Source: Odiellus spinosus (Eukaryota > Arthropoda > Arachnida > Opiliones > Phalangiidae). Taken from it: a stretch of DNA of 64,000 nucleotides. The notes beneath the pieces were generated by a model, which was not told the DNA's origin, did not search any database, and worked only from the letters and a program-made list of their open reading frames with translations. The translations under genes and the position numbers were made by a program. Positions 10,080-57,626 of the stretch are shown in pieces. The stretch is from assembly GCA_963920705.1 (NCBI GenBank), contig OY987230.1:7511185-7575184 (forward strand), in the 5' to 3' direction. Numbering within the stretch: position 1 is the first letter of the stretch; each line of letters starts with the position of its first letter.

Positions 10080-10575
10080 CAGGGCTCCCACCAGGTCCCT
10101 AAAATACCTAAAACCCCCTACTTTTTTTTGAGGTTCCTAAACCACCATAAAATCGTGATTTGGTCCCTAAATCACCATAAAATCATGATTTTTTTTTTTT
10201 TTTTTTTTTTTTTGGTCCCTAAATCACCAAATTTCTAGTAAATTTGGTTAAAAGTACCGTCGTCCTATAATATTGAACAAAAATTTCATGCTAAGTCGAA
10301 AAACTGACAGCGAGTAAAACTGACTAAATCAGTATGATATAATATCACGAAAAAATGTGACAAAATTAAAGTCAGATTTGTGATAAAACGCTTTTACAGA
10401 AAAAAAGTACTTTAAAAGTCATTTTGTGAAAATTAAAGATGTAATTTCTTCTTAAATTGGTTCCTATTTGCTCCCTATTTTAAAAATTTTAGTTCCTATT
10501 TCACCCTATTTCTAGCCTGAAAAATCCCCTATTTTCCTATTTTTTTTTTTTTTTAAGATTTTGGTGGGAGCCCTG
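10080..10575. mobile_element. inverted-repeat element with CAGGGCTCCCACC ends
   Basis: Inverted ends CAGGGCTCCCACCA / TGGTGGGAGCCCTG, with TCTTAC immediately outside both (10074-10079 and 10576-10581), a 6-bp apparent duplication. The interior has repeated GGTCCCTAAATCACCAT and TTCCTATTTYRCCCTATTT words, plus a T-run at 10190-10213. It resembles the 2308 element in style (CAGGG ends, CCTAT-rich body) but differs in sequence. Confidence 0.75.
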
Positions 10576-11054: not shown

Positions 11055-11640
11055 AAAGAATAAATTGATTGACTTTTGGTAGTATCTGTGTATTGTAGAG
11101 TATGTAACACGTATAGTAAAAAATGATCACGATGCGTACTGGAACTTAGTACCGGTATCGTATATTTGCATCTTACACAAAATCCCGCGAGTGGGAAGAT
11201 CCAACGGAATTTTAAAATTGAAATTCCCTTCTTCCCCTTTTAAAAAACAAAATATCAAAGTCGCTTAGAAACCATTTTCTCCATTTCGCGTTCTTTGTCA
11301 GTGTTTATGTTCTCAGAAACATTTTCCTTCAAATTTAGAAATTCTTGGAAAGATCTTCCGTTAATAAATTCAATAGTTGATATTATAAAACTTCACTTTG
11401 TCCAATCTTAAAAAAAAAAGGCAACATCTACCCTAAAATCAGATTCTGCGTAAAAGCAGAATGCAACTTAACAACGAGTGATTTTTTTTTTATTGATTCT
11501 TTATCATTTAAATAGGTCTAATCCAACAGTAAAAAAAAATACAAACAAATATTAAAGTAGAAATCAATTTAAAACTTACCATCAAAATATTCATGGAGAT
11601 GTCCTGAACTCTCCATGACATTGTTCATTGAACAACCTTT
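11055..11640. repeat. unassigned, then family A left-arm fragment
   Basis: 11457-11620 matches the left arm of family A (GCAGAATGCAACTTAACAAC, TTTAAATAGGTCTAATCC, ATTCATGGAGATG). The matching right arm is absent. 11055-11456 has no recognisable content. Confidence 0.5.
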
Positions 11641-11761: not shown

Positions 11762-12630
11762 TAGGACCACCTATAGGAACCATAATAAACATGGGCTGGC
11801 GATGGACCACCTATCTAGGAACCATAATAAACATGGGCTGGCGATGTATGGACCACCTAGGAACCGTAATATGCATTGGCTTGCAATGGACCACCTAGGA
11901 ACTATAATAAACATTGGCTGGTGATGCACCACGTAGGAAACGAAATAAACATTGGCTGGCGATGGACCACCTAGGAACCATAATAAACATTGGCTGGTGA
12001 TAGACCACGTAGGAACCATAATAAACATTGGCTGGTGATGGACCACATAAGAAACGTAATAAACATTGGCTGATGATGGACCACATAGGAAACATAATAA
12101 ACATTGTCTGGTGATGGACCACGTAGGAGCCATAATAAACATTGGCTGGTGATGGACCACATAGGAAACGTAATAAACATTGGCCGGTGATGGACCACCT
12201 AGGAATCATAATAAACATTCGCTGGTGATAGACCACAAAAGAGACGTAGTAAACATTGGCTGGTGATGGACCACATAGGAAACATAATGAACATTGGCTG
12301 GTGATGGACCACATAGGAAACATAATGAACATTGGCTGGTGATGGACCACATAGGAAACATAATGAACATTGGCTGGTGATGGACCACATAGGAAACATA
12401 ATGAACATTGGCTGGTGATGGACCACATAGGAAAGATAATGAACATTGGCTGGTGATGGACCACATAGGAAACATAATGAACATTGGCTGGTGATGGACA
12501 GCATAGGAACCATAATAATGAACATTGGCTGGTGATGGACCACATAGGAACCATAATAATAAACATTGGGTGGTGATGAACCACATAGGAAACATAATAA
12601 ACATTGGCTGGTGATGAACCACATGATGAT
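11762..12630 (+). repeat. 38-bp minisatellite array, about 23 units
   Basis: Consensus unit GGACCACATAGGAAACATAA + (T/A)(G/A)AACATTGGCTGGTGAT, 38 bp. The left third has more diverged units (CACCTAGGAACCATAATAAACA). Units from about 12250 to 12480 are nearly identical, which points to recent local homogenisation. Two right-side units contain an extra 3 bp (ATAATAATG). The complementary strand is open in all three frames simply because the unit lacks stops; this is not evidence of coding. Confidence 0.95.
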
Positions 12631-13380
12631 TTCTAACTTGAAACTGGCATCTCCAGGTTTGACTTCGGTCATGAATTATAAATTAATATCAAGAATTTTA
12701 AATTCCTGCATATATTTAAAACAGAACCACGAGAACACTCGCATCGTCTAAGCTTGCATTTTGGTTTCCTTCAGGGCTCTCCCTCATTTGCGACGATATA
12801 ATACATTCCCCACATCCCGGCGTCTAGCTAGCTTCCTACGTCTTTTTATCCGTTCATGTCCCTTTTCCCCATTGGAAAGCCTCCTTATCATCCGGAAGTG
12901 TCGTCACTCGAGCGTTTCACGGTTTCAATCCAGGCGTGAAGTTGCGGAGTGCCCGTTTCGAATAAAGAAACGTCTATTTTAGGATTACGCGGGGTATTGC
13001 GGGGGGATGATGGTGATGCGTTCATCTCAGCTTTTCCTGATCCTTCGCTTCGCTCCTCAGCTTCTCTGAAGAAAATTTCATTTTAACAGAAATGCGCAGT
13101 TTAACAAGAAATCAGCTAGGGGAGCCGCATCATGCACTGTAGCCTTTCCTGTAGGAAAATCGTTCAATTAAACTGAGGCTATCACGGATTTTTCATGATC
13201 TCCAAATTGAATTGGAGTAGCATTTTCGGAAAGATCGTTAAAAAACGATTCATATATTAATATATAAATCTGAACGCTTCTATTTCTGAACACTGACGTT
13301 TTTAAAACAGCGTCTGCGTCAAAAGTACGCGCCATGGAATGACGAAAACTAGCCCAACAGGTCCGCAACTATTCAAACTT
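12631..13380. other. no feature seen except a family B-like fragment
   Basis: 13172-13250 (GAGGCTATCACGGATTTTTC, TTGGAGTAGCATTTTCGG) resembles 57636-57700, a family B derivative. The rest, including a moderately GC-rich part at 12765-12980, is unassigned. Confidence 0.35.
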
Positions 13381-21115: not shown

Positions 21116-21480
21116 AGGGAGAATGCAACCTAACAAGTGATTTTTTTTTTAACCAGTAAAACAATTTGCAAATATTAGACTAGAAATCAGGCTTAACTGG
21201 ATTCATTGAGATTCTGAATTTCTTCGTATTGAAGGGTCATCGACCAATGAGCAAAGGCTCTTCGTTAAGGTTAGAATTCCCATAACATTCAATTGGTCTT
21301 TGACCCATCATCGCGAAGATAATTCAAGATCTGTATAAATCCAGCTAAGCCTATTTTCCGTGTAAGTTTTAAATTCATTTCTAGTTTATATATCTTTCTT
21401 AATTTTTTATTGGTGGACTAGGCCTATTTAAACGATAACAAATCGACAAAAAACACTCGTTGTTCGGTTGCATTATCCCT
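21116..21480. mobile_element. TTAA-flanked MITE, family A copy
   Basis: Left TTAA (21112-21115) then AGGGAGAATGCAACCTAACA. The right end GGTTGCATTATCCCT is followed by TTGA (21481-21484), a one-base decay of TTAA. The centre has the CCAATGAGCAAAGGC / TGGTCTTTG inner inverted segment typical of the family. Confidence 0.75.
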
Positions 21481-40550: not shown

Positions 40551-40991
40551 AGGGAGAATGCAACCTAACAACAAGTGATTTTTTTTTTATCGATTCCTTA
40601 TCGTTTAAATAAGCCTAATCGACCAATAAAAAGTTTACAAAACAAATATTAAACTAGAAATAATTTTTAAACTTACCCGGAAAATAGGCTTAGCGAGATT
40701 TATGGAGATCTTGCATTGACTCCGTGTAAGGTCTAGTGACCAATGAGCGAAGACCTGTCGTTCAGGCGAGATCTAAACGAGACTTACGATCGAGTTCGAT
40801 TGGTCATCGCTGGACCTTATACGCGAAGAAATCAGGATCTCCACGAATCCCGCTAAGCCTATTTTCTGGGTAAGTTTTAAATTTATTTCTAGTTTAATAT
40901 TTGTACGTAAATTTTTTAACTGTTGTATTAGGCCTATTTAAACATTAAGGAATCCATTAAAAATCTTCTGTTGTTAGGTTGCATTCTCCCT
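40551..40991. mobile_element. TTAA-flanked MITE, family A, full copy
   Basis: 441 bp from AGGGAGAATGCAACCTAACA to GTTGCATTCTCCCT, with TTAA at 40547-40550 and 40992-40995. The centre carries a second inverted structure around TCTAGTGACCAATGAGCGAA. Its right TTAA is also the left TTAA of the next element. Confidence 0.88.
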
Positions 40992-50690: not shown

Positions 50691-51284
50691 ATTAACTTCT
50701 AAAGTTTGGTGAAAGTATAAAGAACAACAGCAACTCCCCATAAGAGTCTGGGTCCACGTAATGTTAAAAATTTTCGTCTCTTTTATGATAAATTCGTATT
50801 ATATTATTAAAATAGGGTAGTTGGGGGATAATTTAAAGCTAAAATTCGAGCTCACAACTGTAAATTTTGGGAATTACAACTAATGGAAGGTTTCTTCCAT
50901 AATGTAAAGAATAGGAAGAATCTATGACTTCCGTGCCGGATATGAAAGCCTTCCCCCACACGAAAATCTTGAACGGTTATTATTTTAGATTCATAATTAT
51001 GTTAGGAAAATATTAGGAAAGAATTATTTTGTAACTGCCACGGGTATAGTGCTGGCGGCAAAATGAAATTCGTATATTTTTGGTCTACTATGCCTCGAAA
51101 TCCTCGAAAACGCCTGTAGAAGTGTTCCACTTGTCAAGCATTCATGCAGTAGGCTTTTGCTAGCTTTACAGGGGCCGTGCAAAGACTATATAGCTTACTT
51201 GAATAGTCTTTGGTGTATAAGAAACTCGAAAAATAAATAGAGAAATCATACCAATTAGAAGATACTGGAGTAGTATCTTTAATT

Positions 51285-51290
51285 TTTATT
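51285..51290 (-). promoter_or_regulatory. polyadenylation signal, left arm
   Basis: AATAAA on the minus strand, 69 bp after the stop of the truncated transposase; exact mirror of 54764-54769. Confidence 0.55.
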
Positions 51291-51358
51291 TCATATTAAA
51301 CAAAACACACTTGTATAAAACGGACAAATTATTCATTTAACGCTAAGGTTTTCTACGT

Positions 51359-52276
51359 TTAACGTATGTCTGGTAGTTCAAGCTCAGTGGCATCTTCACA
51401 CACTACACGCAATTTTGACTGGTACCAACTGCCTCGATCTTCATGGCGACGATAACCAAGATACCAGATTACGCTGCTAACGTGAACACAAGTACCTATC
51501 GTCAAACTACCACCTTTGCAATTGCAATACCAGCCTTTAATGGCATTTGCACCTGTCCCGTTCGGTACATAACGAATTAGAGCTTGGTGAACAGCTGAGG
51601 TGGAAAATTGACCAGGCACGCGTATACGAATTAAGTCATGTTCAACTTTGGTCACTTCGACGCTGAAAGAGCCGGATTTCTCTATAGTCAACGCCACATA
51701 AGATTCAGCGCGTTTCGTTTTAAAGTCGCTCATTACCACCTCACGTACATCACTTTCACGAAGTACAGGGAAGTCTTGAAATTCACTATCCTCAATTCGT
51801 TGCCATTTAGACGGTTTGCGAAGCAGATTATCGCGCTCAACTACTTCCTTAAGAGGATTTTCTTTCGTAGAGACTGCCAGCATTTTTTCGACGGAGTCTT
51901 CCCAGGAACCTTTAAGATGTAACTCCGGGTGGTAGGCGTTCAACAGCGCAGCAGCAATTTGAAGAAGTTCCGGAACTAATGGTAACATATGCACAGGTAT
52001 ACGGTTTTGAAAAAAACGATACACCGTCTGCAAATGCCCATTCCTAACTTCAACCGGCCACCTGAGGTACGTTACTTGTCGGGAACGATTAACTTCTTGC
52101 GTGTTTACTTGCTTCTCGCCTTTAGACAAGAACGAAGGCATTTGTAAATCCACACCCAGTTCAGTCAGTACGCTGTTGGAGTCTCGAAAACCGCGGTCTG
52201 CCAGTACAACGTCACCAACTTGAAAGAAAGACTGGAGTTCTTCTCTCTTTTTGATCATGGTTCTTCTTAAGATCAT
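51359..52276 (-). pseudogene. truncated DDE transposase (left arm)
   Basis: A 305-codon frame. Its first seven codons come from the palindrome core and a junction insert; the rest equals residues 453-750 of the intact protein. It keeps the second Asp (DRGF), the Glu (PVEVRNGHL) and the C-terminal CxC...CxH finger, but lacks the zinc-finger/HTH part and the first catalytic Asp. It cannot be a working transposase. It could compete with the full protein if made. Confidence 0.88.
52253..52263 (-). other. 11-bp templated junction insert
   Basis: On the minus strand GAACCATGATC repeats the sequence 13 bases upstream (GAACCATGATCTTAAGAA) before joining AAAAAGAGAG. It marks the breakpoint of the left-arm deletion and looks like a template-switch footprint. 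Confidence 0.7.
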
Positions 52277-52442
52277 GGTTCAAACCAGATATTACAATTT
52301 TTTTAATGTTTATAAAAGCAGGTTTAATTATTTTTCGCCAACCTGGCTGGCATCTTTAATATTTTTTGCCAGCCAGGTTGGCGAAAAATAATTAAACCTG
52401 CTTTTATAAACATTAAAAAAATTGTAATATCTGGTTTGAACC

Positions 52443-54695
52443 ATGATCTTAAGAACTTTCCTTATCAATAACATCAATGTGAGAGTCACTTGGAATTTGG
52501 AGATGGCTCCAAATACATGTTACGCGTGCAATCGGAAAGTTACCAATAGTACAAGTAGAGGTATAGGCACTCACGTAAAGGCTGGCTTTGCTCGTTTTCT
52601 TCGTTTTAGTAAAGGGTTATTACCACTTGTAATTAATAGCAAAACAACGAAGATTTGTTTAAAGTGCTCGGGTCTGTCACGAAAGTTTCAAACGTTCTTA
52701 AATGCTAGCAAATCGTCCTTCAGTAGTGATCATGGCTCTTCAACGTCATCGTCTTCACCACAAAAACGAAGACAAATGACGCAAGTATCTAATCCATCAA
52801 CGTCAACAGTACCTGAGCCATCAACGTCCACAGTACCTGAACCAACAAAGTCCGCAGTATCTAATCCATCACCGTCACCAATACCTCAGCCATCAACGTC
52901 GCAATTACCACGAAAGCGTACGTCATCAAACACTATTGCCATAAAGCACAGTTGTGTTCGGCCCCTGCCAAAGACTTGCTTCATTTGCGGTGTTAGTACA
53001 CGAACCAGGGTAAAAGCCGAAGTGAGAACAAGTATATTTGTGGAAAGAGCCATATTTATTCATCGGGACAACCGAATGTGCTCCACGCATCTCGTTAACG
53101 GAGAGCTTCCCACCGAAATAATTTCTGGAATTCAGGTTTCCGCTAGATCAACCATTATGACTGCCACGGACATTGAGCAACTATTACAGGACCTCAGGAA
53201 ATGTGTTAACGACCTACGGACGCCGAGCTTTGACAATTTCATACAAAGTGATGAAGACTGTAAAGTATTAACTTCATTGTCCCTGCACGAGTTCCTAGAG
53301 TTGCATTCGACTATTGAGGACATTATTCGTACCATCAGATGCTGTTCGTCGAAGACAGCTCTAGCAGTATTATTGGTGAAATTACGATTGGGTATCTCCA
53401 ATAAGGTGTTGTCAACTTTATTTCATTTAACTGAAAGATCGGTATCAAACACGGTAAAAGCGGTTATTATGGCTTTATCGGAGCATTTCGTGCCACATCA
53501 TTTTGGCCTGCAACACTTATCACGTGACAATCTGATAACAAACCATCAATCTGGAGCAGCAGTAAAACTCTTTGCTAACAACAAGCCTAATTGTCTTATT
53601 ACCATTGTAGATGGCACCTATATCAAGGTTGGAAGATCCAAGGACTATACCGTTCTTCACAAATCCTTCTGTGTGCACAAAGGCCAGCATATCCTCAAGC
53701 CAATGTTAATGGTAACAACTACGGGTTACATAATAGATATAATCGGACCCTACTTTGCTAATGGCCGCAATAACGACGCGCGCATTTTAAACCATTCTAT
53801 CAAAAAGAGAGAAGAACTCCAGTCTTTCTTTCAAGTTGGTGACGTTGTACTGGCAGACCGCGGTTTTCGAGACTCCAACAGCGTACTGACTGAACTGGGT
53901 GTGGATTTACAAATGCCTTCGTTCTTGTCTAAAGGCGAGAAGCAAGTAAACACGCAAGAAGTTAATCGTTCCCGACAAGTAACGTACCTCAGGTGGCCGG
54001 TTGAAGTTAGGAATGGGCATTTGCAGACGGTGTATCGTTTTTTTCAAAACCGTATACCTGTGCATATGTTACCATTAGTTCCGGAACTTCTTCAAATTGC
54101 TGCTGCGCTGTTGAACGCCTACCACCCGGAGTTACATCTTAAAGGTTCCTGGGAAGACTCCGTCGAAAAAATGCTGGCAGTCTCTACGAAAGAAAATCCT
54201 CTTAAGGAAGTAGTTGAGCGCGATAATCTGCTTCGCAAACCGTCTAAATGGCAACGAATTGAGGATAGTGAATTTCAAGACTTCCCTGTACTTCGTGAAA
54301 GTGATGTACGTGAGGTGGTAATGAGCGACTTTAAAACGAAACGCGCTGAATCTTATGTGGCGTTGACTATAGAGAAATCCGGCTCTTTCAGCGTCGAAGT
54401 GACCAAAGTTGAACATGACTTAATTCGTATACGCGTGCCTGGTCAATTTTCCACCTCAGCTGTTCACCAAGCTCTAATTCGTTATGTACCGAACGGGACA
54501 GGTGCAAATGCCATTAAAGGCTGGTATTGCAATTGCAAAGGTGGTAGTTTGACGATAGGTACTTGTGTTCACGTTAGCAGCGTAATCTGGTATCTTGGTT
54601 ATCGTCGCCATGAAGATCGAGGCAGTTGGTACCAGTCAAAATTGCGTGTAGTGTGTGAAGATGCCACTGAGCTTGAACTACCAGACATACGTTAA
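52443..54695 (+). CDS. DDE-superfamily transposase (DDE_Tnp_4 type), intact
   Basis: 750 codons, no intron. Residues 26-75 have two CxxC pairs (C26/C29, C72/C75). 90-160 is a Ser/Pro/Thr-rich linker with TVPEP repeats. 179-216 has a second C2CH-like cluster (C179, C182, C213, H216). 295-345 matches the helix-turn-helix that precedes DDE_Tnp_4. The nuclease core shows VDGTY (D390), NNDARIL (D445), VLADRGF (D472) and LRWPVEVRNGHL (E521). 696-710 is a SWIM-like CxC...CxH finger. Met21 (52503) has a better start context and opens directly onto the first finger, so the true protein may be 730 residues. Role: cut-and-paste transposition. IS5/Harbinger-like, possibly ISL2EU; superfamily not proven. 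Intact catalytic residues suggest recent activity. Confidence 0.92.
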   Translation: MILRTFLINNINVRVTWNLEMAPNTCYACNRKVTNSTSRGIGTHVKAGFARFLRFSKGLLPLVINSKTTKICLKCSGLSRKFQTFLNASKSSFSSDHGSSTSSSSPQKRRQMTQVSNPSTSTVPEPSTSTVPEPTKSAVSNPSPSPIPQPSTSQLPRKRTSSNTIAIKHSCVRPLPKTCFICGVSTRTRVKAEVRTSIFVERAIFIHRDNRMCSTHLVNGELPTEIISGIQVSARSTIMTATDIEQLLQDLRKCVNDLRTPSFDNFIQSDEDCKVLTSLSLHEFLELHSTIEDIIRTIRCCSSKTALAVLLVKLRLGISNKVLSTLFHLTERSVSNTVKAVIMALSEHFVPHHFGLQHLSRDNLITNHQSGAAVKLFANNKPNCLITIVDGTYIKVGRSKDYTVLHKSFCVHKGQHILKPMLMVTTTGYIIDIIGPYFANGRNNDARILNHSIKKREELQSFFQVGDVVLADRGFRDSNSVLTELGVDLQMPSFLSKGEKQVNTQEVNRSRQVTYLRWPVEVRNGHLQTVYRFFQNRIPVHMLPLVPELLQIAAALLNAYHPELHLKGSWEDSVEKMLAVSTKENPLKEVVERDNLLRKPSKWQRIEDSEFQDFPVLRESDVREVVMSDFKTKRAESYVALTIEKSGSFSVEVTKVEHDLIRIRVPGQFSTSAVHQALIRYVPNGTGANAIKGWYCNCKGGSLTIGTCVHVSSVIWYLGYRRHEDRGSWYQSKLRVVCEDATELELPDIR

Positions 54696-54763
54696 ACGTA
54701 GAAAACCTTAGCGTTAAATGAATAATTTGTCCGTTTTATACAAGTGTGTTTTGTTTAATATGA

Positions 54764-54769
54764 AATAAA
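54764..54769 (+). promoter_or_regulatory. polyadenylation signal of transposase
   Basis: AATAAA 68 bp beyond the stop codon, followed by a small hairpin (AAGATACTACTCCAGTATCTT) and AT-rich sequence. Confidence 0.6.
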
Positions 54770-55334
54770 AATTAAAGATACTACTCCAGTATCTTCTAAT
54801 TGGTATGATTTCTCTATTTATTTTTCGAGTTTCTTATACACCAAAGACTATTCAAGTAAGCTATATAGTCTTTGCACGGCCCCTGTAAAGCTAGCAAAAG
54901 CCTACTGCATGAATGCTTGACAAGTGGAACACTTCTACAGGCGTTTTCGAGGATTTCGAGGCATAGTAGACCAAAAATATACGAATTTCATTTTGCCACC
55001 AGCACTATACCCGTGGCAGTTACAAAATAATTCTTTCCTAATATTTTCCTAACATAATTATGAATCTAAAATAATAACCGTTCAAGATTTTCGTGTGGGG
55101 GAAGGCTTTCATATCCGGCACGGAAGTCATAGATTCTTCCTATTCTTTACATTATGGAAGAAACCTTCCATTCGTTGTAATTCCCAAAATTTACAGTTGT
55201 GAGCTCGAATTTTAGCTTTAAATTATCCCCCAACTACCCTATTTTAATAATATAATACGAATTTATCATAAAAGAGACGAAAATTTTTAACATTACGTGG
55301 ACCCAGACTCTTATGGGGAGTTGCTGTTGTTCTT

Positions 55335-55472
55335 CGGGCCAATCAAATTATTTCAGCCTTCAACAGCGCTTGTAATGTCCTAACATTAAAAGGAAAGGCG
55401 CGAGTTTGATGCCTAAGAATGTTAGTACATTACAAGCGCTGTTGGAAGTTGAAATATTATGTGATTGGCCCG
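55335..55472. mobile_element. 138-bp hairpin MITE at the edge of the palindrome
   Basis: CGGGCCAATCA at the left and TGATTGGCCCG at the right are inverted, with arms of about 53 bp including CAACAGCGCTTGTAATGT / ACATTACAAGCGCTGTTG around a GGCGCG-containing loop. It begins at the first base after the right arm ends. No duplicated flank identified. Confidence 0.75.
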
Positions 55473-57192: not shown

Positions 57193-57626
57193 GGAGAATG
57201 CAACCTAATTACAAGTGATTTTTTTTTATCGATTCCTTATCGTTTAAATAGGCCTAATCCATCGATAAAAAGTTTAAAATACAAATATTAAACTAGAAAT
57301 AAATTTAAAACTTGCCCTGAAAATAGGCTTAGCGGGATTCATGGAGATCCGGAATTGCGTCCGTGTAAGGTCTAGCGACCAATGAGTAAAGGCCCGTCGT
57401 TCGCGCGAGATATCCACGAGACTTACGTCGCGTGCGATTGGTCGCTAGACCTTACACGCGAGGAAAACAGGACCTCCATGAATCCCACTAAGCCTATTTT
57501 CAGAGTAAGTTTTAAATTTATTTCTAGTTTAATAATTGTTTGTAAATATTTTCAGTAGTGGATTAGGCCTATTTAAACAATAAGGAATCGATAAAAAATC
57601 ACTTGTTGTTAGGTTGCATTCTCCCT
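57192..57626. mobile_element. TTAA-flanked MITE, family A, full copy
   Basis: GGGAGAATGCAACCTAATTA to GTTAGGTTGCATTCTCCCT, TTAA at 57188-57191 and 57627-57630; the left end has lost one A. Its inner core (TCTAGCGACCAATGAGTAAA / CGATTGGTCGCTAGACC) is very similar to 40551. Confidence 0.85.

Follow-up and report, generated by a model that had tools for sequence, protein, structure and literature searches.

A head-to-head transposase duplication of Odiellus spinosus is probably a centre-deleted copy of a young palindromic Spy-type transposon family

Spy transposons, which belong to the PHIS superfamily, have AAA|TTT as their insertion site and do not duplicate it (PMC4482050, PMC11304231). The portions of these two reports used here describe elements of 1165-5910 bp with one open reading frame (ORF) and terminal inverted repeats (TIRs) of 5-691 nt, the latter being the range reported in PMC11304231 and no definition of Spy. 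The titles and abstract openings of the literature surveyed name no palindromic Spy element with two genes, and neither PMC4482050 nor PMC11304231 contains the string "palindrom" in its main text. As far as described in the consulted part of PMC3573991, Galileo/Foldback elements have long, length-variable inverted repeats, and sequence exchange among their copies was proposed; the Galileo TIRs extend to approximately 1.26 kb and the copies with the longest TIRs are devoid of transposase. For maize Mu killer, the consulted part of PMC3440606 traces the two ends back to TIRA, the end with the promoter, which is located outside. The hairpin was first proposed to result from read-through from a flanking gene, and the 2012 paper reports that in silencing plants short antisense transcripts start within Mu killer, while non-silencing ones show sense read-through (PMC3440606). 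The present study deals with positions 50720-55334 of a 64,000-nt stretch of the Odiellus spinosus genome (contig OY987230.1 of assembly GCA_963920705.1), the whole of which is called the window. The initial annotation had regarded this feature as an inverted transposase duplication that might silence its family in the manner of Mu killer. From our analysis it is very probable that it represents an asymmetric, centre-deleted copy of a young palindromic transposon family of the Spy type.

The boundaries of the feature coincide with the ends of a transposon. The element comprises 4615 bp (50720-55334), and its ends are common to all 36 two-ended copies read. In the strict sense (GAAC...GTTC) it extends from 50722 to 55332 and is flanked by AAA (50719-50721) and TTC (55333-55335). 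The outer inverted arms, 50720-52255 on the minus strand (half-unit positions H1447-2982, counted from the dyad) and 53799-55334 on the plus strand, each contain the 3′ half of the transposase unit including its 3′ end. They are 1536 nt long and differ at two positions (2/1536 mismatches, 99.87% identity). An inverted match of 1.5 kb is far beyond chance, and in this respect the near-perfect inverted duplication of the transposase had been correctly annotated. The right half-unit (52368-55334, plus strand) is complete, with gene, 3′ untranslated region and terminus. In such a complete half, a TATAAA-like site (H53) is followed, in the order from the dyad, by the ATG (H91), the stop codon (H2341), AATAAA (H2412) and the end (H2982). 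In the window copy the TATAAA-like site, a putative promoter, is located at 52405-52410 on the plus strand, 38 nt 5′ of the ATG and directed outward from the dyad, while AATAAA (54764-54769, plus strand) lies 3′ of the stop codon and within the element. The intact ORF of 750 amino acids (52443-54695, plus strand) was assigned to PF13359 (DDE_Tnp_4) with an E-value of 2.6e-19; the Pfam search named no P-element family. Within this ORF, 24-nt repeats at 52784-52909, outside the outer arms of the window copy, encode a Ser/Pro/Thr-rich linker.

The left gene copy is not simply 5′-deleted, as had been assumed. It suffered an internal loss of approximately 1.3 kb and kept 89 promoter-side nt (H15-103; 52264-52352, minus strand) with the start codon and a TATAAA-like site, which was mapped by hand to 52309-52314. 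At the deletion junction (52253-52278, minus strand) the 8-nt motif GATCATGG occurs twice (52253-52260 and 52271-52278); the repetition looks like templated filler. A genome-wide search for the junction that allowed two mismatches found it a single time, so it is private to this copy. At the centre, 16 nt are missing from a 32-nt dyad spacer, and the remnant (52353-52367) is the sole short spacer among the 26 centres found. A small spacer, annotated as 16 bases, does exist (14 nt), but it separates just the inner inverted arms of 105 nt (52248-52352 and 52367-52471). The outer arms are 1543 nt apart, so that in any hairpin the 1.5-kb stem would be closed by a large loop.

Related elements, which the initial annotation had expected elsewhere in the genome, are abundant. 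The 32-nt end of the element gave 459 forward and 457 reverse matches (up to two mismatches) in the 443-Mb genome, while the reversed control gave none. The first 100 of these 916 places were enumerated; 84 of them form 42 convergent pairs and 16 are single. The pairs span 2290-8907 bp, 41 of the 42 not exceeding 5965 bp. For closer inspection, 20 loci were fetched by similarity to the window and 17 further ones from the listed pairs on contig C1 (loci are designated L). The similarity searches scored the best 40 of 876 or the best 40 of 896 candidates and thus yielded partial lists, and the 19 of 42 listed pairs read (including L013 and L016) lean towards shorter elements. L014 and L019 were excluded from all arm counts because one end was missing in the fetched stretch. 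Each of the 36 two-ended copies read (35 loci and the window copy) consists of inverted pairs of one half-unit. Their arm lengths vary widely, with 384-2982 bp shared between the arms, and one copy (L020, 6431 bp) also has unmatched sequence between its pieces. L019, a single complete half with a non-homologous left flank, is most simply a truncation. A single-gene copy with a 5′ end of its own was not seen among the copies read, though no genome-wide search was made for it. The inverted duplication in the window is one copy of a young and abundant family and no one-off locus.

The complete form is represented by L013. It is 5965 bp long and composed of two halves of 2982-2983 nt that are joined without spacer at GAC|GTC, each arm containing an intact 750-amino-acid ORF, one per strand. 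Among 19 elements checked, the ORF was found in both arms of L013, in the window copy and in L015, L018, L026 and L028; L029 of the C1 sample has it as well. The palindrome centres were searched by an exact pattern, requiring both inner 15-mers at a distance of 10-40 nt. Apart from the window copy with its 16 nt, the other 25 of the 26 centres found had a 32-nt spacer, one dyad position and few point differences, although two centres on contig C8 are only 94 nt apart and probably belong to one element. The common dyad position argues for one founder palindrome of this first subfamily.

The insertion sites are uniform. The arrangement AAA|GAAC...GTTC|TTT was counted by eye in 34 of the 36 copies, the exceptions being L034 with a G on the left and the window copy with a C on the right. 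Uninserted homologues joined as AAA^TTT were detected for the L011 site in L017 (97.6%) and for the L033 site within the window itself (10211-10304, 94.7%). For the L024 site there are 14 spanning alignments, in nine of which AAATTT itself was recognized by eye. The window copy has an uninserted homologue in L024 (79% identity), which is joined as AAA^TTCG. A separate insertion at the right end (flank CGGGCC) was considered and dropped, since this homologue places AAA^TTCG in the target repeat. Flanking direct repeats of 5-8 nt were found in none of the 36 copies; one copy has a repeat of 4 nt. A short dispersed repeat related to the AAATTT-containing repeat that was the target of L024 occurs at four places in the window (40555-40987, 57195-57622, 21330-21474 and 11458-11590), two of which hold it as an inverted pair and two as a single copy.

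Between L009 and L010, which reside at sites with different flanks, there is no difference over 4651 bp. Common deletion structures at separate sites were also found in L015/L016/L018, L029/L030, L036/L037 and L023/L028. Identical asymmetric structures at separate sites indicate that the palindrome itself moves as a unit, and the family is presumably still mobile. The same structures bear on the question whether the palindrome could be a misjoined or wrongly duplicated contig segment. Long palindromes are error-prone in sequencing and assembly, but an artefact would hardly recur in identical asymmetric form between different flanks, and together with the uninserted sites and the 42 convergent end pairs this renders such an explanation scarcely conceivable.

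With the Spy elements described in PMC4482050 and PMC11304231, the family shares the uninterrupted DDE transposase ORF (DDE_Tnp_4, one ORF of 750 amino acids per gene) and the AAA|TTT target, which is likewise not duplicated. Unlike them, its complete form is palindromic, with two ORFs in L013 and an inverted repeat of 2982 nt, and both ends correspond to the 3′ end of the gene. Long inverted repeats of variable length that make up much of the element are reminiscent of Foldback and Galileo. However, the arms here hold transposase sequence, up to the length of the whole gene, and the Pfam assignment to DDE_Tnp_4 does not point to a transposase of the P superfamily, to which that of Galileo belongs.

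Long perfect palindromes usually disappear fast from genomes. In 35 of the 36 elements, sequence near the dyad was lost or rearranged as judged by eye, L013 being the sole exception, and many asymmetric copies retain scraps of the left half-centre. At many junctions the segment ends overlap by 1-7 nt or short fillers are present, an assessment made by eye and without a statistic. Such overlaps and fillers, along with the repeated GATCATGG in the window copy, fit end joining after a break at the palindrome centre, which may be the cause of the deletions. In the C1 sample, 16 distinct structures were compared with random placement of single deletions of the same total sizes. The joint probability that these all reach within 107 nt of the dyad is 0.003-0.02, whereby this limit is the largest distance seen and was chosen afterwards, and an element with more than one deletion entered the calculation with a single one.

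The similarity of the arms was examined by looking for variants at mirrored positions. In 35 elements 39 mirrored variants were observed versus 0.19 expected by chance, 26 of which are private to one element and spread over 15 elements; 257 variants occur in one arm only. L039 and positions H<100 are excluded from these totals, and the means of one arm comparison are inflated by the left arm of L021. Copies of the same structure were also compared. L029 and L030 show three mirrored pairs in 18 differences (0.06 expected), L036 and L037 four in 18, the chance value of the latter pair having been computed from 11 differences though 18 were found. Mirrored pairs between copies sharing a structure indicate that conversion took place after those structures had formed. 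At one site of the centre, the 25 centres could be sorted by eye into five with symmetric A/T, seven mixed and six with symmetric G/C; the remaining seven have differences elsewhere or a third state at this site. L031 (G000:C1:2065060-2067450) is a symmetric palindrome of 2290 bp in which both arms have the same deletion from H58 to H1893; it has three arm mismatches and an extra inverted segment in the centre. The initial annotation had left open whether the arms are young or kept uniform by gene conversion. The same-structure copies and the mirrored variants support both, the near-identity of the arms being due to the youth of the copies and to mutual conversion. The arms of sex-chromosome palindromes are likewise homogenised by gene conversion. 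Unlike those palindromes, which are fixed in the chromosome, the ones described here lie inside a dispersed mobile element of at most 6 kb.

Sequence comparison points to a second young palindromic subfamily, whose arms are about 10% diverged and whose dyad is different, with a one-base spacer. Within L039 the two arms show differences in three aligned columns, but compared with the first subfamily in 67 of 665 columns. A search with one L039 arm yielded at least 40 full-length places at 99-100% (arms, including both of L039). Four such elements were probed with two 251-nt pieces each. L052 and L056 have the centre GGCAAAA-C-TTTTGC, L049 has a cut centre and one element (L053, L054) is without such a centre, whereas L039 itself has GCAAAA-G-TTTTGCC in the opposite orientation. 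Along L039, the divergence from the first subfamily varies from 1 to 39 differences per 200 columns, which suggests exchange between the subfamilies.

This second dyad, like the widely varying arm lengths, might mean that there was no palindromic founder and that aberrant gap repair turns single-gene elements into palindromes time and again. Private mirrored variants could then stem from copying of one arm at the time of formation. On the other hand, one dyad position is common to 25 of the 26 centres, the scraps of the left half-centre in many asymmetric copies are what deletion from a full palindrome predicts, and identical asymmetric structures were met at more than one site, with mirrored changes post-dating their split. 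Repeated formation is therefore quite unlikely, and descent from a palindromic ancestor is preferred.

According to this preferred reading, the complete form would be a 6-kb palindrome in which two near-identical half-units, both carrying a full transposase gene, meet head to head at GAC|GTC. Through this joining, both mobile ends would be one and the same sequence, and the palindrome would insert as a whole into AAA|TTT, with no duplication of the target. The centre would be unstable, so that copies lose or rearrange sequence at this point; the window copy would have lost approximately 1.3 kb from one arm and 16 nt at the dyad. The arms would stay near-identical through the youth of the copies and conversion between arms. 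Direct observations underlying this reading are the anatomy, the copy number of the ends, the target and uninserted sites, the identical structures at separate sites and the mirrored variants. Several observations weigh against it. The assignment to Spy, based on the target site and the single-ORF DDE_Tnp_4 transposase, is a probable one, and the arms of the 36 copies mostly exceed the TIR range of 5-691 nt given in the consulted part of PMC11304231. L013 is not a flawless palindrome, since its arms show 11 polarised one-arm differences. At the L010 site, a spanning homologue in L023 (76%) aligns uncleanly at the junction. The deletions touching the centre are no more than moderately unlikely under random placement. 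The two dyads may signify that palindromes formed twice at nearly one point or that a centre was trimmed symmetrically. Finally, no mirrored pairs were found in L015/L016/L018 and in L023/L028, which, together with the lack of differences between L009 and L010, indicates that conversion is sporadic.

The parallel with Mu killer holds in part. As far as described in the consulted part of PMC3440606, both are inverted duplications of a partly deleted transposase gene with ends stemming from one original end. However, Mu killer is a single locus with promoter ends outside, while here the promoter sides meet at the dyad and the family is abundant. The TATAAA-like site and the start codon are proximal to the dyad and AATAAA is distal, so that the putative promoters would point outward, and transcripts of the element itself should be two sense mRNAs that form no double strand. 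If the promoter is indeed near TATAAA, a hairpin would require transcription entering from outside. Such read-through is possible, as in the first Mu killer model (PMC3440606), and for this reason a silencer has to be weighed as a rival. In this scenario, transcripts reading through the inverted copy in the window would fold into a hairpin, and its dicing would lead to silencing of the family. The 1.5-kb near-identical arms would be suited to this. The host also has exon-level matches to the Piwi domain (21), to RNA-dependent RNA polymerase (RdRP; 47) and to the Dicer-dimer domain (3), so silencing by read-through products may be possible. By contrast, the same architecture was found in 36 of 36 copies and the window copy is singled out only by its private junction. 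Neither would the outward putative promoters and the AATAAA inside the complete half yield a hairpin from the element's own promoter, and identical copies at separate sites tell of recent movement of the family. In view of the family-wide architecture and the outward putative promoters, the dedicated silencer was dropped as the main reading; a specific silencing role of this locus, ordinary for its family, is unlikely.

As to the host proteins, the Piwi-domain frames resemble animal PIWI, to judge by a motif. Strong RdRP-family matches are located at nine places on contigs C1, C2, C5, C11 and C17 (G000), including two neighbouring ones on C2; a weak match lies on C6 (G000). This number is high for an animal.

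The deleted arm might also act through a protein. Its ORF of 305 amino acids (51359-52276, minus strand) begins with an ATG in frame with the C-terminal part and covers DDE_Tnp_4 profile positions 64-158. KP acts as a repressor for P elements, and the retained in-frame start codon would allow a truncated transposase with a similar function. However, the junction creating this ORF was found once in the genome, joining in frame occurs by chance in about one third of cases, and in 19 elements no other deleted arm has a longest ORF with the same starting codons, the second full gene of L013 aside. A KP-like repressor is therefore very improbable.

Apart from the transposon, overlapping open frames in the window at 11771-12682 translate to a repeated motif of the SPANVYYVSYVVHHQPMF type; this stretch is probably a minisatellite.

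An inverted transposase duplication alone is no evidence of a Mu-killer-type silencer. Before such a silencer is inferred, it should be checked whether the shape is family-wide and where the promoters are positioned relative to the dyad. It is the palindromic family, with its arm conversion and its decay, that makes the locus interesting, and not a unique silencer. Tentatively, the palindrome might be a propagating, self-correcting form, in which the arms serve as templates for mutual repair, as the mirrored mutations and the L031 deletion shared by both arms would suggest, and the dyad decays to one-gene or no-gene derivatives. Read-through from outside into any copy would give a long hairpin RNA, and in a host with RdRP, Dicer and PIWI the family may thus be self-limiting. 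A widely spread family of zero-spacer palindromes would provide natural replicates of palindrome breakage, deletion and re-copying in animal cells.

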